Part shown: in pieces, positions 5,170-39,953 of the stretch
Position numbering within the stretch: the stretch's first letter is position 1
How the letters are laid out: each line of letters starts with the position of its first letter
NCBI RefSeq assembly: GCF_019464495.1
Contig: NZ_CP080492.1
Coordinates: 434,001-498,000, forward strand
Length of the DNA: 64,000 bases
Direction: 5' to 3'
DNA from: Leucobacter luti
Lineage (GTDB): Bacteria > Actinomycetota > Actinomycetes > Actinomycetales > Microbacteriaceae
Position numbers and translations under genes: made by a program
Notes under the pieces: model-generated
Seen by the model: only the letters and a program-made list of their open reading frames with translations
Database searches by the model: none
What the model was told of the DNA's origin: nothing

Positions 5170-6189
5170 TTACTCCCCGTAGGCCGCGAGGGCTCGCTCC
5201 GCCCATACACGAACTGCCTCGCGCGCGGCGGCAGGCGATTCAATCGAGATCTCACCGGGGGCGAGCTGAACGAGGTTGATCGCGGTGTCGCGGTGCCACG
5301 CGTCAACACGCACGATTACCCCGCCATCCGCGGTCTCGCTCACAATCTCGGGCGCGAAGCCGGACAGCCGGGGCAGCGCGCGCGACGTTACCCGCAGTGT
5401 GATCCCAGTCACGGGCGCAACAGATACCGGAGCGGGAGTCACACGAGATTTCGGGCCCGCTTCAGGATCGGGATCGGACGCACGCGGCGGCGATCCCTGA
5501 GACTGCGTTGTGCGGACGGTGCGCGACAGTTCTGAGAGGGTGAGTTCCGCAATCTGGTCCACTCGGAAGGTGCGCTCGGCATCTCGGTCGAGGCAGAATG
5601 CGCGCAAGTACCACCCGCCCCCGCCCTGGGTAAGCGCGATGGGATCCACCGTACGCTGCGTCTCGACACCCGAGGCATCGCGGTAGACAAAGCGTACGGA
5701 CCGCTGGGTATCGATCGCGGTCACGAGCACTGGAATTCGCGGATCCTCGGGGTCGACACTCACCGACACCGCGGGGGTCGCGCCAGCACCGAGTGCCGCA
5801 CCCAACTTGGCGGCGGTGGCTCGCGCGAGTTCCGCGTCTTGTGGAGGCAACACGGCTGTGAGCGCGTGCAGCCCCGCAACGAGTGCCGCCGTCTCGGCCG
5901 GTGCGAAGCGCGGGGCTTCCTCGACGGCCACCGTGCGAGTGAGACTCACTTCGTCGAAGCGCTCGAGCGCGTCCCAATCAATATCGAAGAGATCCTCGTG
6001 CTGGTAGCTCATCGTCTCGCCCGGCACACCAGCCGTTCCGAGAAAGCGCACGAGCTCGCGGAGCAGCTTCGGCGTCACATCGAACGTCGCCGCAAGTTCA
6101 GTCACAGAGACCGCGCCGTGCTCACGCAGATACGGCACGAGCGCGAGCAGCAGCAATACCCGATCTGGGCCCAGCACTGGATTAGGCAT
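5170..6189 (-). CDS. pafC: WYL-domain transcriptional regulator PafC
   Basis: PafC works with PafB as a WYL-domain activator of the LexA-independent DNA-damage response in mycobacteria. The 339-residue product has an N-terminal winged helix (PDRVLLLLALVPYLREHG..VTELAATFDVT), a WYL-type domain (SVRFVYRDASGVETQRTVDPIAL...GWYLRAFCLDRDAERTFRVDQI) and a C-terminal WCX extension. I chose ATG 6189, which overlaps the pafB stop by 8 nt (ATGCCTAA). Upstream in-frame starts would read far into pafB. Translational coupling with pafB suggests a heterodimer. Confidence 0.9.
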   Translation of the reverse strand: MPNPVLGPDRVLLLLALVPYLREHGAVSVTELAATFDVTPKLLRELVRFLGTAGVPGETMSYQHEDLFDIDWDALERFDEVSLTRTVAVEEAPRFAPAETAALVAGLHALTAVLPPQDAELARATAAKLGAALGAGATPAVSVSVDPEDPRIPVLVTAIDTQRSVRFVYRDASGVETQRTVDPIALTQGGGGWYLRAFCLDRDAERTFRVDQIAELTLSELSRTVRTTQSQGSPPRASDPDPEAGPKSRVTPAPVSVAPVTGITLRVTSRALPRLSGFAPEIVSETADGGVIVRVDAWHRDTAINLVQLAPGEISIESPAAAREAVRVWAERALAAYGE

Positions 6190-7216
6190 CGGTACCCCCG
6201 CCATGAGTGTCTGCGATCCGTTGCAATCCCTCAGCCACGAGTGCCCGGAGCGAATCTGGGGACACGACCGCAGCATCCGCGCCGAACCCGATCAGCTCTG
6301 TCGCAAACAAGTGCGGATCGAGCATGCCCAGAGTGAGTACGGCATCCGGCGCTTCCAGAGCTCCTTCGGCGATGGGAACTGCCGCAGTTTCAAGCGCACG
6401 CGGAGCCAGCCTCGCCTCCGCGATCGACCCGCGACGCACCCGCACCGTCGCGCGCTGAGCATCACGGAGCCTGAGGAGTTCAGCGACCGCACCTTCGGCG
6501 CGCTCGAACAGCGCCGGATCGAACGTTGCTCGCTCGACAGTTACCGGGCCGTCAATTCGCGCCAGCAGGAACACTCGATCGGCTGCTCGATCCAGATCCC
6601 ATGAGAGCAAGTGCCACCGCCCATCGGCGCGATGTAACCGGAGCGGAGCCACTCGGCGCTCCAGCGGAGCATCGCGGCCGGGCAGTGTATAGCCGAAGCG
6701 CACGATATTGCCGGTGTCGATTGCGCCCTGCAACCGCGCGGCGGCCGGCGAGGCAGTGCCAAGGCTGGGCGCCACTCCCAGATGCTGCACATCGAGGCCC
6801 GCCCCGAGGGCCTCCAGCTTCATCGCGGCGCGGCGCGACTCGGCGCTCAGGCTGCCGTCTTGCCACGCGAGCGCGGCGAGTCGCAGCAGCACGAGCTCCC
6901 GCTCACTGAATCGCAGGTCGCTCGGGAATTCGAGCCGTTCCTTCGATATCCGGTAGCGGACGAGCTGGTTGTTCCCGGGTTCGAGAGGAGAGTCGCGAGT
7001 CTCGATTTGAATACCGAGACCTCGCAGCTGCTCCTTGTCGCGTTCGAACTGACGATCGAGAGCCGGCGATATTTCGTCGCCCCTGCGGAATCGTTCAGAG
7101 TAGCCGTACACCGTCGACAGCAGCTCGCGTTTGGTGAGCCCCTCGGGGCTCACCACGAGTGCGAGCACGAGGCTAAACACTCGCTGCTCGCTTGGCACCG
7201 TTGACCGGTCCGCCAC
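6182..7216 (-). CDS. pafB: WYL-domain transcriptional regulator PafB
   Basis: Partner of PafC. The 344-residue product begins at GTG 7216 and has a winged-helix region (EQRVFSLVLALVVSPEGLTKRELLSTVYGY), a WYL domain (GNIVRFGYTLPGR...RRVAPLRLHRADGRWHLLSWDLDRAADRVFLLARI) and a C-terminal extension. The pafA ligase and other Pup-proteasome genes that often sit beside pafBC are absent. This fits Actinobacteria that lost the proteasome but kept PafBC for DNA-damage control. 8 bp separate it from the upstream lipoprotein gene. Confidence 0.9.
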   Translation of the reverse strand: MADRSTVPSEQRVFSLVLALVVSPEGLTKRELLSTVYGYSERFRRGDEISPALDRQFERDKEQLRGLGIQIETRDSPLEPGNNQLVRYRISKERLEFPSDLRFSERELVLLRLAALAWQDGSLSAESRRAAMKLEALGAGLDVQHLGVAPSLGTASPAAARLQGAIDTGNIVRFGYTLPGRDAPLERRVAPLRLHRADGRWHLLSWDLDRAADRVFLLARIDGPVTVERATFDPALFERAEGAVAELLRLRDAQRATVRVRRGSIAEARLAPRALETAAVPIAEGALEAPDAVLTLGMLDPHLFATELIGFGADAAVVSPDSLRALVAEGLQRIADTHGGGTDA

Positions 7217-16749: not shown

Positions 16750-16834
16750 TGCGCGGAGGGGGACTTGAACCCCCACGCCCTAATACGGGCACTAGCACCT
16801 CAAGCTAGCGCGTCTGCCATTCCGCCACCCGCGC
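16750..16834 (-). tRNA. tRNA-Leu, anticodon GAG
   Basis: 85-nt class II tRNA. Acceptor stem GCGCGGG/TCCGCGC, discriminator A, D-arm with GCGGAATGGCAGAC, anticodon stem CTAGC/GCTAG with loop TTGAGGT (anticodon GAG, reading CUC and CUU), a long variable arm (GTGCCCGTATTAGGGCGT) and T-arm GGGGGTTCAAGTCCCCC. CCA is not encoded. An intrinsic terminator follows. Confidence 0.96.
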
Positions 16835-32450: not shown

Positions 32451-32831
32451 CTACTGGCGAATGGCGGCCGCAAACCGCGGCGCGCGGGGCGGACGGCGCG
32501 GATCGAGTTCACCGGCGAGTGTGCCGTCCGGCGCGATGTGACTGAACATTTGCTCGACCACGGCGAGGATATGGGGATCTTCGATCCGGTACAGCTGCCG
32601 CCTGCCATCGCGGCGCGAGGCGACCATACCGGCGGCCCGGAGCTTCGCGAGATGCTGGCTGGTGGCCGGCACACTCGCACCCGAGCGCTCGGCGAGCGTC
32701 GTGACGTCACACTCCTGCTCAGCGAGCAGCCAGACAATGTGCAGCCGGTTCGGCGTGGAAAGCATGTCGAAGGTGCCAGCCGCCGCTTCGAGCTGGGCGT
32801 CAGTAATCGTCGGGGCTGGGTGATCGTCCAT
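32451..32831 (-). CDS. ArsR/SmtB-family regulator
   Basis: 126-residue winged-helix repressor. HTH: FDMLSTPNRLHIVWLLAEQECDVTTLAERSGASVPATSQHLAKLRAAGMVASRRDGRRQLYRI (in pieces, residues 22-85). One Cys (ECDV, in the alpha-3N position) and several His in the C-terminal helix (DPHILAVVEQMFSHI) could form a metal site of the alpha-5 type (D-x-H...H). A perfect palindrome, ACTTGCGCAAGT, sits 25 nt upstream in the divergent region shared with the ABC permease gene. It probably represses itself and that transporter. Confidence 0.9.
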   Translation of the reverse strand: MDDHPAPTITDAQLEAAAGTFDMLSTPNRLHIVWLLAEQECDVTTLAERSGASVPATSQHLAKLRAAGMVASRRDGRRQLYRIEDPHILAVVEQMFSHIAPDGTLAGELDPRRPPRAPRFAAAIRQ

Positions 32832-32855: not shown

Positions 32856-32867
32856 ACTTGCGCAAGT
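32856..32867. promoter_or_regulatory. Probable ArsR operator
   Basis: ACTTGCGCAAGT, a perfect 12-bp palindrome between the divergent arsR and ABC permease genes. It lies where the -35 of the rightward promoter would be; TAGGCT (32884-32889) is the likely -10. Confidence 0.6.
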
Positions 32868-32899
32868 CATTCTGTATTTTGGTTAGGCTTGCTGAGGTG

Positions 32900-34717
32900 A
32901 TGCGCTCGCAAACCGCGCGCGCACCTCACCGCATGCACAAGCCAATGGACGCAGCCGAGGGGGTGACACCCGTGACCGTTTCGCCGATCGGCCCCTTCAG
33001 CGGATATGGGCCAGCCCTGCGCGCCCGCGATCAGCGTGTCGCCGATATCGCTGTGCTCGCCGGCGTCGCCGTGCTGTTCTGGCTACTCATCGTGCTCACC
33101 CGAGGCGCCGCGACTCCCGTCGGTCCGGAGCTCGCACCTGCCCAGGTCTCCACTGACCCGAGTCAGCTGCCCTACTATGCTGGCCGCTCACTCCTCCGGA
33201 TGTTTCTCGCACTTGCCGCCGCCACACTCTTCGCATTCGTGGTCGCCACAGCAGCAGCCAGACTCCCCCGAGCCGGGCGCGTCATCATCCCAGCCCTCGA
33301 CGTGCTGCAGTCCGTTCCCGTGCTCGGGTTCCTCTCGGTCACCATCGGGCTCTGGCTCACGCTGTTTCCCGGCACCTCGCTCGGGCGGGAGATCGCGGCG
33401 ATCTTTGCGATCTTCACGAGCCAGGTGTGGAACATGACGTTCGCGTTTTACCAATCACTCATCACGCAACCACGGGATCTCGACGAGGCCTCGCGCATGC
33501 TGAGGCTCAGTCAGTGGCAACGCTTCTGGCAGCTCGATGCGCCGCACGGCGCGTTCCCGCTCGTGTGGAACGGCATGATGAGCTTCGGCGGCGGCTGGTT
33601 CTTCCTCATCGCATCAGAGGTGATCACGGTCCATCACCGCACATACGCTCTGCCGGGGCTCGGATCCTACGCGGCCGCGGCGGCTGCGCGCGCCGAACCG
33701 AGCCGGCTGCTGCTCGCCGCGATCGTCTTGATCGTCCTGGTCGTCGGGGTGAACTTCGTGTTCTGGCGGCCGCTCACCGCGTGGGCCGAGCGCTTCCGCG
33801 CGGGCGACACTGACACCGCCGAGCCACAGCGCAGTGTGGTGTTCGATCTCCTGCGGCGCTCCGCCGTTCCCGGACTTTTGGCGCGGCTGCTGCATCCGGT
33901 GTGGGAGGTGCTGGATCGCGCAACAAGGCGCCGCGGCTCTCGCAGGCACCCGCGGGCGCACCGCCGCCGTCACCGCGCCGCGGACATCACGATCACCACG
34001 CTCGTCACTGCTGTGCTCGCTTGGGGTGTGATCGCCATGCTGAGCTACATCTCGCGCGAAGCCGGCCTCGGCCAGTTCGCCACCGCCGCGGGGCTGGGCC
34101 TCGTCACCTTTGCGCGCGTCCTCGTACTGCTCGTACTTGGCACGGTTGTGTGGGTGCCGATCGGGGTCTGGATCGGCCTCAACCCGCGCGTGACTCGCGT
34201 GGCCCAGCCGATCGTGCAGGTACTCGCGAGCTTTCCCGCCAACTTCCTGTTCCCGTTCGCCGCAATCGTGCTGCTCTCCACTGGGATCAGTCTCAACTGG
34301 GGCGGGATCCTGCTGATGTCGCTCGGCGCGCAATGGTACATCCTGTTTAACGTGATCGCAGGAGCTGCCGCGATCCCGATCGACCTGCGCGAGGCAGCCC
34401 AGAGCATGCGGCTGACACGCGCCGAGACCTGGCGCAAACTGATCCTTCCGGCCGTCTTCGGTTCCTGGGTGACCGGCGCACTCACCGCGGCCGGTGGCGC
34501 GTGGAACGCCTCGATTGTCGCGGAGGTTGTGAGCTACGGCGGCGAAACCCTCACCGCCACCGGCCTCGGCGCGTACATCGCCGAGGCGACTCGCCACGGC
34601 GACTTCGGACAGGTGCTGGTCGGCGTACTCGTGATGAGCGTGTATGTCGTCGCACTCAACCGGTTGCTGTGGCGCCGACTCTACGCGCTCGCTGAGCAGC
34701 GTTTCTCATTCACCTAG
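32900..34717 (+). CDS. ABC transporter double permease (NitT/TauT-like, two fused domains)
   Basis: About 605 residues made of two binding-protein-dependent permease domains in tandem. Domain 1 (about residues 60-290) carries the coupling motif EASRMLRLSQWQRFWQLDAP, and domain 2 (about 360-600) carries EAAQSMRLTRAETWRKLILP. Each has about six membrane helices, joined by an Arg-rich linker (RRRGSRRHPRAHRRRHRA). The arrangement resembles an SsuC/TauC dimer fused head to tail. Start uncertain: ATG 32900, or leaderless GTG 32897 placed 7 nt after TAGGCT. No binding-protein gene is nearby. The ATPase follows after 17 nt. Confidence 0.85.
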   Translation: MRSQTARAPHRMHKPMDAAEGVTPVTVSPIGPFSGYGPALRARDQRVADIAVLAGVAVLFWLLIVLTRGAATPVGPELAPAQVSTDPSQLPYYAGRSLLRMFLALAAATLFAFVVATAAARLPRAGRVIIPALDVLQSVPVLGFLSVTIGLWLTLFPGTSLGREIAAIFAIFTSQVWNMTFAFYQSLITQPRDLDEASRMLRLSQWQRFWQLDAPHGAFPLVWNGMMSFGGGWFFLIASEVITVHHRTYALPGLGSYAAAAAARAEPSRLLLAAIVLIVLVVGVNFVFWRPLTAWAERFRAGDTDTAEPQRSVVFDLLRRSAVPGLLARLLHPVWEVLDRATRRRGSRRHPRAHRRRHRAADITITTLVTAVLAWGVIAMLSYISREAGLGQFATAAGLGLVTFARVLVLLVLGTVVWVPIGVWIGLNPRVTRVAQPIVQVLASFPANFLFPFAAIVLLSTGISLNWGGILLMSLGAQWYILFNVIAGAAAIPIDLREAAQSMRLTRAETWRKLILPAVFGSWVTGALTAAGGAWNASIVAEVVSYGGETLTATGLGAYIAEATRHGDFGQVLVGVLVMSVYVVALNRLLWRRLYALAEQRFSFT

Positions 34718-34734
34718 GTCCCTGGAGTCCCCTC

Positions 34735-36129
34735 ATGTCATTCGAGAAGCTTCCCCCGGCATCCAGTTCCGGGCAGGTCCCCACGGCGCCCGATGAGGAC
34801 GCGCTGATCCTCGCAGATCACGTGTCGCTATCGTTCCCGGCCGCCGACGGCGGAGCCTATGACGTGCTCACCGAGGTCAGCCTCGCCCTGCGGCCCGGCG
34901 AGATCGTGGCCCTGCTCGGCAAATCCGGATCCGGAAAATCAACTCTGCTGCGGCTGCTCGCCGGGCTCATAGAGCCCAGTTCCGGATCAGTGCGCTACCG
35001 CGGTGAGCGCCTGAACGGGGCCAATCCCGGGGCAGCGATGGTGTTCCAATCGTTCGCGCTGATGCCGTGGCTCACAGTTCTCGACAACGTCGAGCTCGGG
35101 ATCAGAGGCACCGGACTCCCCCGGGCCCAGCGACGCGCACTGGCTCTGGATGCGATCGATGCGATCGGACTGGACGGCTTCGAATCTGCGTATCCGCGCG
35201 AACTCTCGGGCGGCATGCGGCAGCGTGTCGGCTTCGCGCGCGCCTTCGTGCAGCACCCTGACGTCCTGCTTATGGACGAGCCATTCTCCGCACTCGACGT
35301 GCTCACCGCGGAGAATTTGCGCGGTGAGTTGATCTCGATGTGGGGCGCAGCTGACTTCCCCACACGCTCCATCTGCATCGTGACCCACAACATTGACGAG
35401 GCGGTGCAGCTCGCCGACCGCGTGCTCGTGCTGGGCGGGAGCCCCGCCAGGATCACCGCCGAGGTGCCAATCGTGCTCCCGCGCCCGCGGGACCGGCGCA
35501 GCCCCACGTTCGACGCCGCGGTCGATCACTTGTACGGGCTGCTCACGGGGCGTGAGGAGGGGGCCCGTGCACACCTGGTTCCCGGTCCGCTCACCCACCC
35601 GCTGCCAGAAGCTACGGTCGGCGGGCTGGCCGGCCTCGTACAGATCGTGGTCGCGCACGGCGGCCAGACAGACCTGCCGGATCTTGCTGATCAGCTGGCG
35701 TTTGACGTTGATGATCTGCTGCCGCTGGTCGACGCAGCACAGATGCTCGGGCTATTGGAAGTGGCTGGCGCCCAGGCGTTCCTCACCGAAACCGGTTGGG
35801 CGTGGCAGTCCGCTGATATGCAAGCGAGCAAGCGGCAGTTCGCGAAGCTAGCGGTGGCCGGCGCTCCGCTCGTGAGTACGATTGTCCGCGCACTCGAACA
35901 CAGCAACGACGGCGCGCTGCGCGACGACTTCTTCCGTGATCTGCTGCGACGCGGTTTCACCGCGGATGACGCGCAACGCCAGCTTGAGCTCGCGATCGAC
36001 TGGGGCCGCTACGGCGAGCTCTTCGATTACGATGCCAACGCCGGCGAGTTCGTGCTCGCCGAGGTGGCGTCGGGCCTCGCGGACTGGCTGGAGGGAGATC
36101 AGCCGGATCGCGGGTCCGATCCCAGCTAG
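34735..36129 (+). CDS. ABC transporter ATPase with C-terminal AAA-associated domain
   Basis: 464-residue protein. Residues 20-260 form a NitT/TauT-type ATPase: Walker A LLGKSGSGKSTLL, Q-loop VFQSFALMPW, signature LSGGMRQRVGFARAF, Walker B VLLMDEPFSALD, H-loop VTHNIDEAV. Residues 285-450 match the AAA-associated C-terminal domain found on ATPases of twin-permease systems (GGLAGLVQIVVAHGG, LPDLADQLAFDVDDLLPLVDAAQMLGLLE), which resembles a winged helix. Paired with the double permease and no binding protein. ArsR control suggests a metal or metal-related substrate (inference). The stop lies inside a strong hairpin. Confidence 0.87.
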   Translation: MSFEKLPPASSSGQVPTAPDEDALILADHVSLSFPAADGGAYDVLTEVSLALRPGEIVALLGKSGSGKSTLLRLLAGLIEPSSGSVRYRGERLNGANPGAAMVFQSFALMPWLTVLDNVELGIRGTGLPRAQRRALALDAIDAIGLDGFESAYPRELSGGMRQRVGFARAFVQHPDVLLMDEPFSALDVLTAENLRGELISMWGAADFPTRSICIVTHNIDEAVQLADRVLVLGGSPARITAEVPIVLPRPRDRRSPTFDAAVDHLYGLLTGREEGARAHLVPGPLTHPLPEATVGGLAGLVQIVVAHGGQTDLPDLADQLAFDVDDLLPLVDAAQMLGLLEVAGAQAFLTETGWAWQSADMQASKRQFAKLAVAGAPLVSTIVRALEHSNDGALRDDFFRDLLRRGFTADDAQRQLELAIDWGRYGELFDYDANAGEFVLAEVASGLADWLEGDQPDRGSDPS

Positions 36130-36150
36130 GACTCGGTCCCGCGATCCGGC
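36102..36150 (+). terminator. Long GC-rich hairpin at the end of the ABC operon
   Basis: GCCGGATCGCGGG (36102-36114) pairs perfectly with CCCGCGATCCGGC (36138-36150), and a further 4 bp pair inside after one mismatch. The ATPase stop codon lies in the loop. No T-run. Convergent with the CorA operon. Confidence 0.6.
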
Positions 36151-36216: not shown

Positions 36217-37068
36217 TCAGCGCAATTGCCCGGCGCGCTTCACCGTGTAGATCGGGATCACCGCAAGGCAAAAGACCCCGATGATCTGCACCCAAGCGGA
36301 GTACTCCCAGCTCAGCTCGGGCATGAACTCGAAGTTTTGCCCGTACCAGTTGATCAGCGTCGTCCCAGGAATCAGGATCGCCCACAGCACGGTAAATATC
36401 TTCACAATGTTGAGGTCACTGGTGGCGATCTGCTGTGCGGTGTCGCGCGCGTGGAATCGGTGCCGGTCGATACAGAACTCAACTCGATTCGAGAGCGCGT
36501 CGCCCTGCTGGATCAGCGCGTCGAGCTCCTCGCGTGGGACCGCACCTGTTTCGGCAGCCTCGCGCCGCATCAGTCTGGCAAGCTGCGTGAGCCGCCCAAC
36601 CGAGTACGACACGTGCGAGAGCATGGCGTCGACGTCGGTGAGGATCTCACTCACGTGAGGGAGATCACTCAGTCCAATCCCGCGTGCAGGTCCCAGCTCC
36701 GCGGCGAGCCCGGCGACGGATCCTCGCACGAAGCGAAGATCAGCTTCGATGAGTCCGAGACTTTCCGCATTCGCACGGAAGCCGGCACGCACGATGGCGG
36801 TGCCCGCTCCGGCGGCGCCCCGATTCGCAGCGTCGTCCCACTGCAGTCGCGCCTCGACGTCCTGCAGCAACGGAACACCGACGCCCGGCTCAATCGTCAT
36901 GATTTCTCCGGGCCGGATCACAACGGAGACGTCCCACACCCGCGCACCCTCGGGATCGGGCGTCACGAAGCGGAGCGGGAACGCATCCGGCGCGGTCACT
37001 TCGTCTGTACCCTCAGCTGCGGCACACACCCGCGTCCAGCTGCGCTGCGACACACTCCGGACACTCAT
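36217..37068 (-). CDS. CorA-like divalent cation transporter 1 (YGQN signature)
   Basis: 283 residues: a cytoplasmic alpha/beta N-domain, long helices, then two C-terminal membrane helices. The signature after TM1 is YGQNFEFMPEL rather than the canonical YGMNF..MPE. The stretch before it (SDLNIVKIFTVLWAILIPGTTLINW) matches CorA TM1. I chose ATG 37068, which overlaps the CorA2 stop (ATGA). The C-terminus is basic (TVKRAGQLR) as usual. Last gene of the M-box operon. GMN is important for magnesium selection in studied CorA proteins, so selectivity may differ. Confidence 0.87.
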   Translation of the reverse strand: MSVRSVSQRSWTRVCAAAEGTDEVTAPDAFPLRFVTPDPEGARVWDVSVVIRPGEIMTIEPGVGVPLLQDVEARLQWDDAANRGAAGAGTAIVRAGFRANAESLGLIEADLRFVRGSVAGLAAELGPARGIGLSDLPHVSEILTDVDAMLSHVSYSVGRLTQLARLMRREAAETGAVPREELDALIQQGDALSNRVEFCIDRHRFHARDTAQQIATSDLNIVKIFTVLWAILIPGTTLINWYGQNFEFMPELSWEYSAWVQIIGVFCLAVIPIYTVKRAGQLR

Positions 37069-38027
37069 CGCAGCCACCCTTTGCGCTTGATGTAGGCAAG
37101 CGGCACGAGCGCGAACACCGCAGTAGTGCCCATCACGAACCACTCACCCCACTCCAACGCGAGCTCCGGCATGTTCGCGAAGTTCTGGCCGTAGTATGCG
37201 GCGATCAGAGTTGGCGGCGTGAACACCGCTGTGACAACGGTGAACACCTTGATGATCTGATTCTGCTTCAGATCCAGCGTGGTCATGAGCGACTGTTGAA
37301 TATTGCGCACTTTCGCGTGCTGGAACCGTGCGTGGCGCCGTCCTCCCTGGATATCGGAGAGCAGCGTGGAATACTCCTGCTGTGCATGGCCGCTCGCCCG
37401 GCGCACCCTGCGGGCGGCACGCTCCAGCATCAGCTGCCCCTGCACGGTGCGGGCGATGAGCTCTTCTGCACCGCCGAGTGACACCGCTGTCTGCGCGATA
37501 TCTGCGACACCGACCTGCCTCCCCTCGAGTCTGTAGCCGCCGCTACTGTCCACTGCGTCGTCCGCGAGGCGATTGAGTACGTGGGAGATCCGATCGACGG
37601 TATCTTGCAGCGCGTCGTTCAGGCCTTCCAAGATGATCAGTAGCGCCTCGCGGCTCGTCGCCGTCTCTGGGAGCCTGCCGATACGAGACTGGGCGGCGGC
37701 GAGGGCCTCGATCGGGTGATCCGGTTCGACCGTGATGAGCAGATCGTCGGTGAGGGCAAGCAGTATCCGAGCTCCCATGAATACGGTGCCTCCGTCAGGA
37801 ACGACGTGGTGCGGGAAATCTGGCAGAGGGAGATCGAGCGGCAGCACAACACACCCCTGCTCGTAAGTGGGGTGCCTGTTGTCCCGATCCAGATGCACCC
37901 CGTATGTGCCCTGGATGCTCGCCAGCATGGCCCGATCGGAGGCGCGCACGCGCAGCCAGCCGGTGCGCGGCAGTTCGGCCCCCGTCACGGGGTTCGGCTG
38001 CGCTGTCGCGGTGGTGTTCTCAGTCAT
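37065..38027 (-). CDS. CorA-like divalent cation transporter 2 (YGQN signature)
   Basis: 320-residue CorA-family protein. Stalk helix and TM1 are conserved (LMTTLDLKQNQIIKVFTVVTAVFTPPTLIAAYY), the loop signature is YGQNFANMPEL, and TM2 ends in the basic tail YIKRKGWLR. The N-domain is an alpha/beta fold. ATG 38027 has only a weak ribosome-binding site. Translationally coupled to CorA1 by a 4-nt overlap, suggesting both may join one mixed pentamer (inference). Confidence 0.88.
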   Translation of the reverse strand: MTENTTATAQPNPVTGAELPRTGWLRVRASDRAMLASIQGTYGVHLDRDNRHPTYEQGCVVLPLDLPLPDFPHHVVPDGGTVFMGARILLALTDDLLITVEPDHPIEALAAAQSRIGRLPETATSREALLIILEGLNDALQDTVDRISHVLNRLADDAVDSSGGYRLEGRQVGVADIAQTAVSLGGAEELIARTVQGQLMLERAARRVRRASGHAQQEYSTLLSDIQGGRRHARFQHAKVRNIQQSLMTTLDLKQNQIIKVFTVVTAVFTPPTLIAAYYGQNFANMPELALEWGEWFVMGTTAVFALVPLAYIKRKGWLR

Positions 38028-38095
38028 TTCGACCGTCTTTCGTGAAGTGGTGGGACGAGTGCGAAGTGAGGCCCGCCCGTACGGTGTGGTGCCGG

Positions 38096-38329
38096 CTACC
38101 CAAGGGTGAGGCCGAAGATGTGGAGGCCGGCGAAACAGGCGATGATGCCTGCGTAGAGCACGACGACCGCCCAGATGATCTCGCGCTCGATTTTCGAGCT
38201 GCGCGGACGCGATGAGTCGTCTTGCGCCTGCTCCATGCCGGGGGTTTCAGCGCCGAGGCTGTTCAACTCGAGTCGTGAACTCCAAACATTGGGCGAGGTG
38301 CGGGTGGGCTGTAAGTTCTGCGGTGACAT
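38096..38329 (-). CDS. Small single-span membrane protein (77 aa) of the M-box operon
   Basis: 77 residues, from ATG 38329 with CAGGAG 7 nt upstream. The polar N-terminal 50 residues are followed by one C-terminal membrane helix (IIWAVVVLYAGIIACFAGLHIFGL). I do not recognise a family. It lies between corA3 and corA2 with short gaps (50 and 68 nt), inside the riboswitch-controlled operon, so it may assist or regulate the CorA proteins, as MgtS or MgtR do for other magnesium carriers. No similarity to those peptides is claimed. Confidence 0.65.
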   Translation of the reverse strand: MSPQNLQPTRTSPNVWSSRLELNSLGAETPGMEQAQDDSSRPRSSKIEREIIWAVVVLYAGIIACFAGLHIFGLTLG

Positions 38330-38379
38330 AGCGGGCTCCTGATGAGTGTCAGAGGGGTGATGGGTTTGGGTCAAGCGAG

Positions 38380-39330
38380 CTAGCGCAGCCACCCGCGCCA
38401 GCGGACGTAGAGCAGCGGGAGCATCGCAAAGATGAAGCTCAGCACGATGATCATGGGCTCCGCGTACTGCCAATTGAGGATCGGCATGAGCTCGAAGTTC
38501 ATGCTGTAGTAGGTCGAGAGCAGCATCACCGGCAGGAATACCGCGGTGACGACCGAGAACACCTTGATGATCTGGTTTTGCTTCACGTTCAATGCGAGGT
38601 TGTTAGTCTGCTGGAGTAACCGCACGCGGTCGTGCACGAAATCGATGTGCGGCTCGATCGCCTCGATATCTTGGAGGAGCCGTTCGAGATCGGTGCGGTT
38701 CTCCCAGCCGCGGCCTCGGGTGAGCGTCCGGAGGTGGCGTCCGCCCTCGGCAAGCACAAGCTGACTCTCCATGCAGTAGGACAGGAGTTCTTCCATGTCG
38801 GCGAGCTCCTGCTGCGTTGCTGTGACGTCGCTCACGCCGAACTCGCGCGCCCGCTTCGTTTCGAGGCTGCGCAGGATCGAGCTGGTCTGCGTCATCATCC
38901 GCTCGGTGCTGCCGCTCAGGTTCGTGACCAGTTCGTCCGTCGTATCGGCGATACTCTCGAGGACGCACGCGGCGATCTCGATCGGGCTATCGCCCGCTCG
39001 CCCATCGCGCTCCATGCGGGCGAGCGCAAGGTCGAGGGGTGCGCAGCCGCTGAACGGCTCGATCGTGATGACGACGTCTTTCCCGACCACGAGCACAATG
39101 CTCGTCTCTCGGTACGATCCGGCGTCACGATCCACACATGAGACCGAGATGGTGACGAAGTCACCGCCGGAATTGAACGGGGTGGTTACTGCCTCGCGGA
39201 GGTCAGCGCCGTAGTCACCGCGCAGCCGTTCCAGCACTTCGAGGTCGCCGCCAAGGACGCGCTGCCAGCGCCCCTCACACAGCGAATCGACGTGGCCCTG
39301 TCGAGCGAATTGTGGTTCTGTGGTCTTCAT
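38380..39330 (-). CDS. CorA-like divalent cation transporter 3 (YSMN signature)
   Basis: 316-residue CorA-family protein. TM1 region: LALNVKQNQIIKVFSVVTAVFLPVMLLSTYY; loop signature SMNFELMPIL (Gly of GMN replaced by Ser, Glu of MPE replaced by Ile); TM2; basic end VRWRGWLR. I prefer ATG 39330 (MKTTEPQFARQ), with GAGA a few nt upstream; ATG 39363 would add 11 residues. First CorA of the operon, 53 nt after the 107-residue small protein. Confidence 0.88.
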   Translation of the reverse strand: MKTTEPQFARQGHVDSLCEGRWQRVLGGDLEVLERLRGDYGADLREAVTTPFNSGGDFVTISVSCVDRDAGSYRETSIVLVVGKDVVITIEPFSGCAPLDLALARMERDGRAGDSPIEIAACVLESIADTTDELVTNLSGSTERMMTQTSSILRSLETKRAREFGVSDVTATQQELADMEELLSYCMESQLVLAEGGRHLRTLTRGRGWENRTDLERLLQDIEAIEPHIDFVHDRVRLLQQTNNLALNVKQNQIIKVFSVVTAVFLPVMLLSTYYSMNFELMPILNWQYAEPMIIVLSFIFAMLPLLYVRWRGWLR

Positions 39331-39383
39331 CGTGTCTCTCGTTTCGCGCGGGTAGGAGGCCATCTCGTGGGGAGGCTCGTGCC

Positions 39384-39707
39384 CTACTCGTCGTCTTTGT
39401 AGAAGGTGCTGTGGGTTCCCGACGTCGAGGAGGTCTTCGTTTCGAGCCCGTAGTTGAGGGCGTGTAGCCCGGCGGTCACCCCGAGGGTGAGGGCGGCACT
39501 CAGCAGCACCATGCGGGTGGTGAACTTCTCGTAGCGGGTGACTCGGCGCTTCCTCACCGCTGACGTCGATCCTGCAAAAACGTGGCTGTGCCAGTGTTCT
39601 TCGGCAGGAGCTCCGCTACTCGGGCCGCGGCCGCGGACGCCGCGTTGCGCGACATTCGGCTGATGGACCTGCCAGAACAGGATGGGTTCGCGGAAGTCTC
39701 TGGGCAT
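39384..39707 (-). CDS. Small single-span membrane protein (107 aa), first gene after the M-box
   Basis: 107 residues, ATG 39707, with AGAGGAAG about 10 nt upstream. The N-terminal 55 residues are polar (MPRDFREPILFWQVHQPNV...). A basic stretch (VRKRRVTRYEKFTTR) precedes one membrane helix (MVLLSAALTLGVTAGLHALNYGL), and a short polar tail follows. No family recognised. It is the first gene behind the riboswitch, so it is the one most directly under magnesium control. Confidence 0.65.
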   Translation of the reverse strand: MPRDFREPILFWQVHQPNVAQRGVRGRGPSSGAPAEEHWHSHVFAGSTSAVRKRRVTRYEKFTTRMVLLSAALTLGVTAGLHALNYGLETKTSSTSGTHSTFYKDDE

Positions 39708-39724
39708 GGCTCAGCTTCCTCTCA

Positions 39725-39739
39725 CGCCTCGTCGAGGCG
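39725..39739 (-). promoter_or_regulatory. Hairpin between the M-box and the first ribosome-binding site
   Basis: CGCCTC-GAC-GAGGCG (minus strand), a perfect 6-bp stem that ends next to the AGAGGAAG of the 107-residue protein. It may be part of the riboswitch output, hiding or freeing the ribosome-binding site. No T-run, so translational control seems likelier than termination. Confidence 0.5.
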
Positions 39740-39757
39740 GCTAGGGATAGTGGACAG

Positions 39758-39921
39758 GCGCTTCCATGTCAGAGCTTCGGCATTGCACGACGTAGCCAGA
39801 TGGCAGCCACTTGGGATACCCCCTTAATCCGAGGGCACCTGTCCTGATCTTGAACATCTCTCGATGCCTGCAGATCAGTGGCCTGTGTTCGTGCAAGAGC
39901 CTCACCGAACGAAGCGCTTCC
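39758..39921 (-). promoter_or_regulatory. M-box (ykoK) magnesium riboswitch
   Basis: On the minus strand this about 164-nt leader shows the M-box conserved blocks in order: CTTCGTTCGGTGAGGCTC, ACACAGGCCACTGATC, GATCAGGACAGGTGCC, AAGTGGCT and GTGCAATGCCGAAGCTC. The ends pair (GCGCTTC near 39915 with GAAGCGC near 39760) as the closing P1 stem. A promoter sits directly upstream (-10 at 39925-39930), so transcription would begin at the 5' edge of P1. Known M-boxes bind Mg2+ and shut off magnesium-transport genes at high Mg2+. Here it leads an operon of two small membrane proteins and three CorA homologues. Confidence 0.9.
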
Positions 39922-39924
39922 ATC

Positions 39925-39953
39925 ACCGTACCAACATTCAATCACTTGCGCAA
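39925..39953 (-). promoter_or_regulatory. Promoter of the M-box/CorA operon
   Basis: Minus strand: TTGCGC (-35, 39948-39953), 17-nt spacer, TACGGT (-10, 39925-39930). It fits exactly upstream of the riboswitch. Confidence 0.6.

Follow-up and report, generated by a model that had tools for sequence, protein, structure and literature searches.

Can three CorA paralogues that stand behind one Mg2+-sensing leader, interleaved with two small membrane proteins, be subunits of a single channel? The question is raised by a leftward operon of Leucobacter luti, located in a 64,000-nucleotide stretch of contig NZ_CP080492.1 (positions 434,001 to 498,000; hereafter, the window, which numbers all features of this locus). 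At a probability of roughly 0.58, we read the operon as encoding a single hetero-oligomeric channel of the CorA type for divalent cations, most likely Mg2+, with two accessory subunits. The initial annotation had pointed out the three CorA copies under one sensor; that observation is real and stronger than was stated, and to it are added here pore filters other than GMN, a resemblance of the small proteins to the partner of a single CorA, occurrence in distant bacteria, and a palindrome with an ArsR/SmtB neighborhood.

All elements of the operon lie on the minus strand, and their coordinates bear out the five-gene order first read behind the riboswitch. The M-box (ykoK) Mg2+ riboswitch aptamer (RF00380; 39755-39920) is followed by sp107, corA3, sp77, corA2, and corA1, with intergenic gaps of 53, 50, 68, and -4 bases, the last being an ATGA overlap of corA2 and corA1. 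The gene sp107 (39384-39707), preceded by a GAGAGG Shine-Dalgarno sequence, encodes a 107-aa single-pass membrane protein that is cationic ahead of its hydrophobic stretch and ends in the tail ETKTSSTSGTHSTFY; sp77 (38096-38329) encodes a 77-aa single-pass membrane protein containing SKIEREIIWAVVVLYAGIIACFAGLH. The three paralogues are corA3 (38380-39330, in an open reading frame [ORF] open to 39363), corA2 (37065-38027), and corA1 (36217-37068), the most divergent one. Their products pass the PF01544 cutoff of 27 bits with 55.2 (CorA1), 126.3 (CorA2), and 130.7 bits (CorA3). None reaches the TIGR00383 equivalog cutoff of 200.75 (47.4, 111.1, and 99.8 bits, respectively), which the single GMN-type CorAs of two loci described below (L041 and L042) likewise fail to attain, and no match to ZntB (NF007092) was found for the three operon CorAs at E ≤ 1. 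The genome, a single contig of 3.41 Mb, has five CorA matches above the Pfam cutoff, i.e., these three and two elsewhere that both carry the canonical YGMNF.

The pore sequences set the operon CorAs apart. CorA has been described as a homopentameric Mg2+ channel; PMC3629940 terms the GMN motif universally conserved in CorA and describes a TmCorA entry lined by the side chain of Asn314 and the carbonyl of Gly312, and PMC4504495 describes a hydrophobic gate of TmCorA lined by M291, L294, A298, and M302. GMN occurs in none of the three operon CorAs, and the Asn is always kept. The filter reads GQN in all 88 CorA1 clusters retrieved by protein searches (63/63 in the alignment subset of 62 clusters plus the window), GQN in 11/11 CorA2 proteins, and SMN in 10/10 CorA3 proteins, with which the copies of a further Leucobacter locus (L072) agree. 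Counting back from the filter motif, Trp occupies position 298 (TmCorA numbering) in 88/88 CorA1 clusters, a position held by Thr in CorA2 and CorA3, except for Ala in the CorA3 of the Burkholderiales locus L015. CorA3 also lacks the Glu of the MPEL loop, which reads MPIL. A homopentamer would have little room for five Trp residues at 298, which makes a minority share of the subunits more likely for CorA1. A CorA1 model built from the 63-row alignment (mean predicted local distance difference test [pLDDT] score, 86; predicted template-modeling [pTM] score, 0.73) was compared with solved chains, and the best 50 matches were all CorA (query-normalized template-modeling [TM] scores of 0.37 to 0.68 at 10 to 16% identity). 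Since the model aligns with CorA chains over approximately its full length, the weak Pfam score of CorA1 reflects divergence, not truncation.

The five genes travel together. Scanning genome contigs with CorA2 returned 11 loci, of which 10 (L006 to L015) have the complete five-gene set in the order seen in the window. The remaining locus, L016, contains a remote CorA and was left out of all module counts. The 10 loci come from eight named Leucobacter, Actinotalea caeni (L013), and a Burkholderiales metagenome-assembled genome (MAG; L015), whose five proteins are 30, 31, 34, 34, and 44% identical to those of the window. A tenth module-bearing genome of the genus (G214; L072) has the five genes with the same motifs, which brings the total to 12 loci with the window included. 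The gene order of the window thus recurs in nine further Leucobacter genomes, as well as in Actinotalea and the Burkholderiales MAG. Across a set of 54 Leucobacter genomes (the window's own among them) searched for CorA1, CorA2, CorA3, and sp107, the same 10 genomes yielded CorA1, CorA2 with CorA3, and sp107, and none of the 54 carries only some of these genes. In a 45-CorA tree, from which L011 was left out as the same locus as G234, CorA1 (18 rows; support 100/100), CorA2 (11 rows; 100/99), and CorA3 (10 rows; 98/94) each form one clade that takes in members from distant bacteria. The order of the deep forks is unreliable because of long branches (the L015 rows, E. coli, and Chthoniobacterales).

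Wider sampling gave sparse occurrences, with counts that may be partly low because only the best candidates of each genome were scored: at least 1 of 199 genomes in the family (the window's own; best 11 candidates per genome), at least 1 of 396 Actinomycetota at 1e-40 (best 5), and at least 3 of 369 in a class sample (best 6), where G249 alone has the triple arrangement. An sp107 search (best 11 candidates per genome) found at least 1 of 398 genomes in the phylum of G249 and at least 1 of 399 in its order. Protein searches reached further, with at least 35 clusters for the window CorA1 (8,000 candidates scored at most) and 54 for a Serratia CorA1 as the query (88 distinct in all), and 78 clusters for sp107, from sources that include Comamonas, Castellaniella, Oligella, Pseudomonas, Bordetella trematum, Acinetobacter, and a Chthoniobacterales MAG. 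Between the CorA1 and sp107 clusters, 23 longest contigs are identical in size, versus a mean of 0.1 after a 10% size jitter. The Oligella entries AAEX37_00511 (sp107) and AAEX37_00515 (CorA1) differ by four in number, the spacing expected of a five-gene operon.

Horizontal transfer of the module is suggested by this patchiness, by its presence in Actinotalea and the Burkholderiales MAG, and by a plasmid remnant truncated by insertion sequences. The remnant lies on a Serratia plasmid (L034, 6980-8385; replicon typed IncI1), where a corA2 piece cut by transposase genes is followed by a whole corA1. Among plasmids, the Serratia CorA1 matched only that Serratia plasmid, and the window CorA2 matched 102 records, at least one of which (Serratia) exceeds 60% identity among the best 20 of the 102; no plasmid match was found for the two-gene small protein described below or for a Pseudomonas sp107. 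E. coli genomes contained no match to the Serratia piece. Carriage by phages was considered and rejected, since viral contigs yielded no relative and phage records only three remote CorA matches, all Salmonella entries.

The initial annotation had staked its case in part on the conservation of the small proteins beside corA, and both are present in all of L006 to L015 and in L072. Neither matches a Pfam or NCBIfam family above the cutoff, the best being DUF3040 for sp77 at a sub-cutoff E of 0.033, and each has one clear hydrophobic stretch. The net charge of sp107 is +6 in the 15 residues ahead of this stretch and 0 after it, a pattern which suggests that its N side is inside. The tail SS[TK]S[GPS][ST]H is kept in 77 of the 78 sp107 homologous clusters. 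Having both helix and tail conserved as protein in distant bacteria, sp107 was rejected as a mere leader peptide.

A simpler form of this gene association occurs in two genomes from the class of the Burkholderiales MAG, G339 (L041) and G403 (L042), where a small membrane protein (minus strand, 5920-6162 and 6219-6605, respectively) is encoded directly upstream of a single GMN CorA; the L042 protein has a longer C-terminal part, for which no Pfam family was matched. A similar pair of small protein and CorA resides on a Streptomyces plasmid (L033). In one-to-one profile comparisons, with a two-gene profile of only two rows, the two-gene small protein matched sp107 (96%, E = 3.4e-9) and sp77 (93%, E = 4.6e-7), whereas sp77 and sp107 compared directly gave a weaker match (63%, E = 6.9e-5). 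By these profiles, sp77 and sp107 are related through the two-gene small protein. The simplest account of the operon would then be a duplicated cassette of small protein and CorA, [sp107-corA3]-[sp77-corA2], to which corA1 was added.

Regulation of the operon was approached from its leader. The M-box that had been recognized by eye was recovered by cmscan over the whole window at 132.2 bits (gathering cutoff, 44; E = 1.8e-29), covering positions 1 to 169 of the 169 in the model, and this score, E value, and completeness argue against a chance match. An M-box above the gathering cutoff precedes the operon in 9 of the 10 loci from the contig scan (the exception is L013), in all 10 genus genomes that hold the module, and in L015, adding up to 11 of the 12 loci. 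A second M-box of the L. luti genome sits upstream of an MgtC-family gene. The promoter that had been placed directly ahead of the aptamer stands in part: a putative TTGCGC-17-TACGGT was read by eye at 39925-39953 on the minus strand, and TTGCGC-17-TAnnnT is present in seven other Leucobacter M-box leaders, but a sigma-70 consensus scan found no site at the operon promoter. An intrinsic terminator was looked for in the window leader as the expression platform and rejected, none being found behind the M-box. Two-state folding of nine leaders (L011, L013, and L015 were left out) predicted that forcing the aptamer opens the Shine-Dalgarno sequence further in seven, leaves it equally open in one, and makes it less open in one. 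Four control M-boxes, with ribosome sites picked by pattern, gave the expected sign once, the opposite sign twice, and no difference once; because the controls show that the method has little power, folding gives no direction of the switch. For the window leader, the 3′ strand of the aptamer was predicted to pair with the start codon, an idea rejected because the other leaders do not keep this pairing. A different pairing is available in the leaders of L009, L012, and L014, between the 3′ aptamer strand CUCUGACAUGG and CCGUGAGAGG, or a similar stretch, at the ribosome site. Such pairing would give an ON, not an OFF, switch, and it may occur by chance.

A second regulatory mark is the palindrome TTGCGCAA (39946-39953), a putative operator that overlaps the -35-like hexamer in the M-box leaders. 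Its exact sequence lies upstream of the operon in 11/11 actinobacterial loci (10 of the genus plus L013) and is missing upstream of the operon in L015. It also precedes mgtA in L013 and stands 36 bases ahead of the M-box in an mgtA-mgtC leader (L074). No exact copy was found at five non-operon M-box loci (L067 to L070 and L073), so TTGCGCAA is not general to Mg2+ genes. The window contains it three times, and 14 of 100 shuffles have as many; because 8 bases recur by chance, the weight of this evidence lies in position and recurrence. Further copies were seen behind corA1 in L009 (8297), L010 (8318), L011 (8060), and L072 (1381), the one in L009 adjoining a short ORF with hydrophobic stretches.

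The second copy in the window (32858-32865) falls between an ArsR/SmtB-family gene (32451-32831, minus strand) and an ATP-binding cassette (ABC) operon convergent with the corA operon, an arrangement found in 8 of the 9 loci that cover this stretch (the exception, again, is L013). The ArsR/SmtB protein exceeds the cutoff of the NF033788 subfamily (85.1 versus 55 bits), its gene has orthologues in eight related loci, and it is probably the protein that binds TTGCGCAA. The ABC operon (plus strand) consists of a permease gene with two permease stretches (PF00528; listed ORF, 32858-34717, with a true start probably further in) and a gene for an ATPase with a C-terminal AAA-associated domain (PF00005 and PF09821; 34735-36129); the permease neighbors the module in eight other loci, including one where the end of the locus truncates it, and the ATPase in seven. 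To our knowledge, no substrate has been assigned to the ABC type at 32858-36129. In another genome (G1754; L071, 1181-1340, reverse complement), an M-box is located upstream of what by eye is apparently the same kind of ABC operon, a placement that hints at a tie of the ABC system to Mg2+; behind this ABC operon lie two genes for small membrane proteins that we take to resemble CrcB. A long hairpin, GCCGGATCGCGGG...CCCGCGATCCGGC, was noted by eye at 36102-36150 between the convergent ABC and corA operons and may be a bidirectional terminator that lacks a T run. Elsewhere in the window, a tRNA gene (51.8 bits) occupies 16750-16834 on the minus strand.

In the channel that we favor, the three paralogues would share one pentameric ring with a mixed filter, to which all three contribute Asn, while its middle residue is Gln or Met and its first residue Gly or Ser; the hydrophobic gate would receive the Trp of CorA1. 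The proteins sp107 and sp77 would be fixed accessory subunits beside the transmembrane ring, serving as assembly or stabilizing factors or, through the sp107 tail, as outer-side parts. The M-box would couple expression to cytosolic Mg2+, by analogy switching it on when Mg2+ is low, and would act on sp107 translation and/or via Rho, not by way of an intrinsic terminator. A protein binding TTGCGCAA, probably the neighboring ArsR/SmtB regulator, would supply a second input. The multi-subunit uptake system for magnesium or another cation proposed in the initial annotation is thus strengthened by gene order, joint presence, pore sequences, the M-box, and the promoter motif, which is shared with the Mg2+ genes of L013 and L074; the single complex and its ion are what we infer from them. 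Several observations weigh against this reading. Joint presence would also be compatible with three separate channels, and subunits that have lost GMN might carry a different ion or conduct nothing. The L013 leader showed no M-box even with lax filters, and the folded leaders do not follow the canonical OFF logic (more open in 7 of 9, with only 1 of 4 controls as expected). In addition, the ArsR-type protein keeps three metal ligands of alpha-5, presumably those of SmtB, within the alignment (the fourth lies beyond it), and such ligands would fit Zn/Co/Ni sensing.

That the operon supplies three separate, coexpressed homopentameric CorAs of differing affinity or ion, with the two small proteins each serving one of them as an MgtS/MgtU-like stabilizer, is unlikely but deserves attention. 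The homopentamer is the form described in the literature, sp107 precedes corA3 and sp77 precedes corA2 just as in the two-gene form, and MgtS and MgtU protect MgtA and MgtB, according to PMC13209247. However, separate channels sit poorly with the lack of any subset of the genes searched in all 54 genomes, CorA1 has no small protein directly ahead of it, and a homopentameric CorA1 would probably have its gate crowded by five Trp residues. Were the system instead dedicated to another cation (Co, Ni, Mn, or Zn), the GQN/GQN/SMN filters, with GMN in no subunit, and the nearby ArsR/SmtB gene with the same palindrome would be accounted for, and one mycobacterial M-box branch leads manganese-type transporter genes according to PMC12810186. 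We consider this improbable in view of TTGCGCAA ahead of mgtA (L013) and of the mgtA-mgtC M-box leader (L074) and of mgtA and mgtC placed directly behind the module in L013. Finally, one or two of the CorAs might be nonconducting modulators in an operon that tunes or exports Mg2+, perhaps under an M-box that acts as an ON switch. Such a role has been proposed for Lpe10p, which reportedly modulates Mrs2p in yeast mitochondria. The Trp gate of CorA1, the CorA3 loop devoid of Glu, and the CUCUGACAUGG-CCGUGAGAGG pairing available to several leaders all speak for such roles, which nevertheless appear very improbable given the little power shown by the folding controls and a palindrome shared with Mg2+ uptake genes.

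Returning to the hetero-oligomeric channel, the odds are even that the operon represents the first bacterial hetero-oligomeric CorA, composed of three obligate paralogues with a GQN/GQN/SMN filter and a CorA1 Trp gate, joined by two related accessory subunits, derived by cassette duplication, spread between phyla as one unit, and equipped with its own M-box in 11 of 12 loci. A natural three-CorA set that keeps the Asn and has dropped GMN in every copy, fixed across distant bacteria, would make it possible to test directly which filter positions set selectivity and whether a fivefold channel works asymmetrically. The set would further establish a family of small proteins that partner CorA and link M-box genes to a palindrome in the promoter. 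Among the papers listed in searches of the open-access literature, judged by titles and abstract openings and with subscription papers largely outside, none appeared to describe the operon.

Compared with known CorA channels (PF01544; TmCorA and MjCorA), the operon proteins have the same fold, the two C-terminal helices joined by a loop, and the filter Asn, but they differ in being three coencoded paralogues with GQN/GQN/SMN instead of GMN, a Trp in the CorA1 gate, and two small partners. The pairs built on a single GMN CorA (L041, L042, and L033) share a small single-pass protein encoded immediately ahead of a related CorA, and the L041/L042 proteins have a TKTSST.PAH tail like that of sp107 and a helix like that of sp77; they differ in having one CorA, an intact GMN, and no M-box found at E ≤ 0.01. 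Mrs2 and Lpe10 of yeast mitochondria resemble the operon in that two CorA-type paralogues have been proposed to work jointly, although they are eukaryotic. We know of no small partners or riboswitch for this pair. PMC12810186 describes, for M. tuberculosis pe20/rv1805A, an actinobacterial M-box with a small conserved first protein and no intrinsic terminator, and reports that translational and Rho-dependent control was shown for the pe20 M-box. That system differs in its downstream genes, which are PE/PPE and MgtC rather than CorA, and rv1805A is likened here by description only. MgtS-MgtA and MgtU-MgtB (PMC13209247), likened to the operon by role only, are likewise small membrane proteins serving an Mg2+ transporter, with the difference that the transporters they serve are P-type ATPases.

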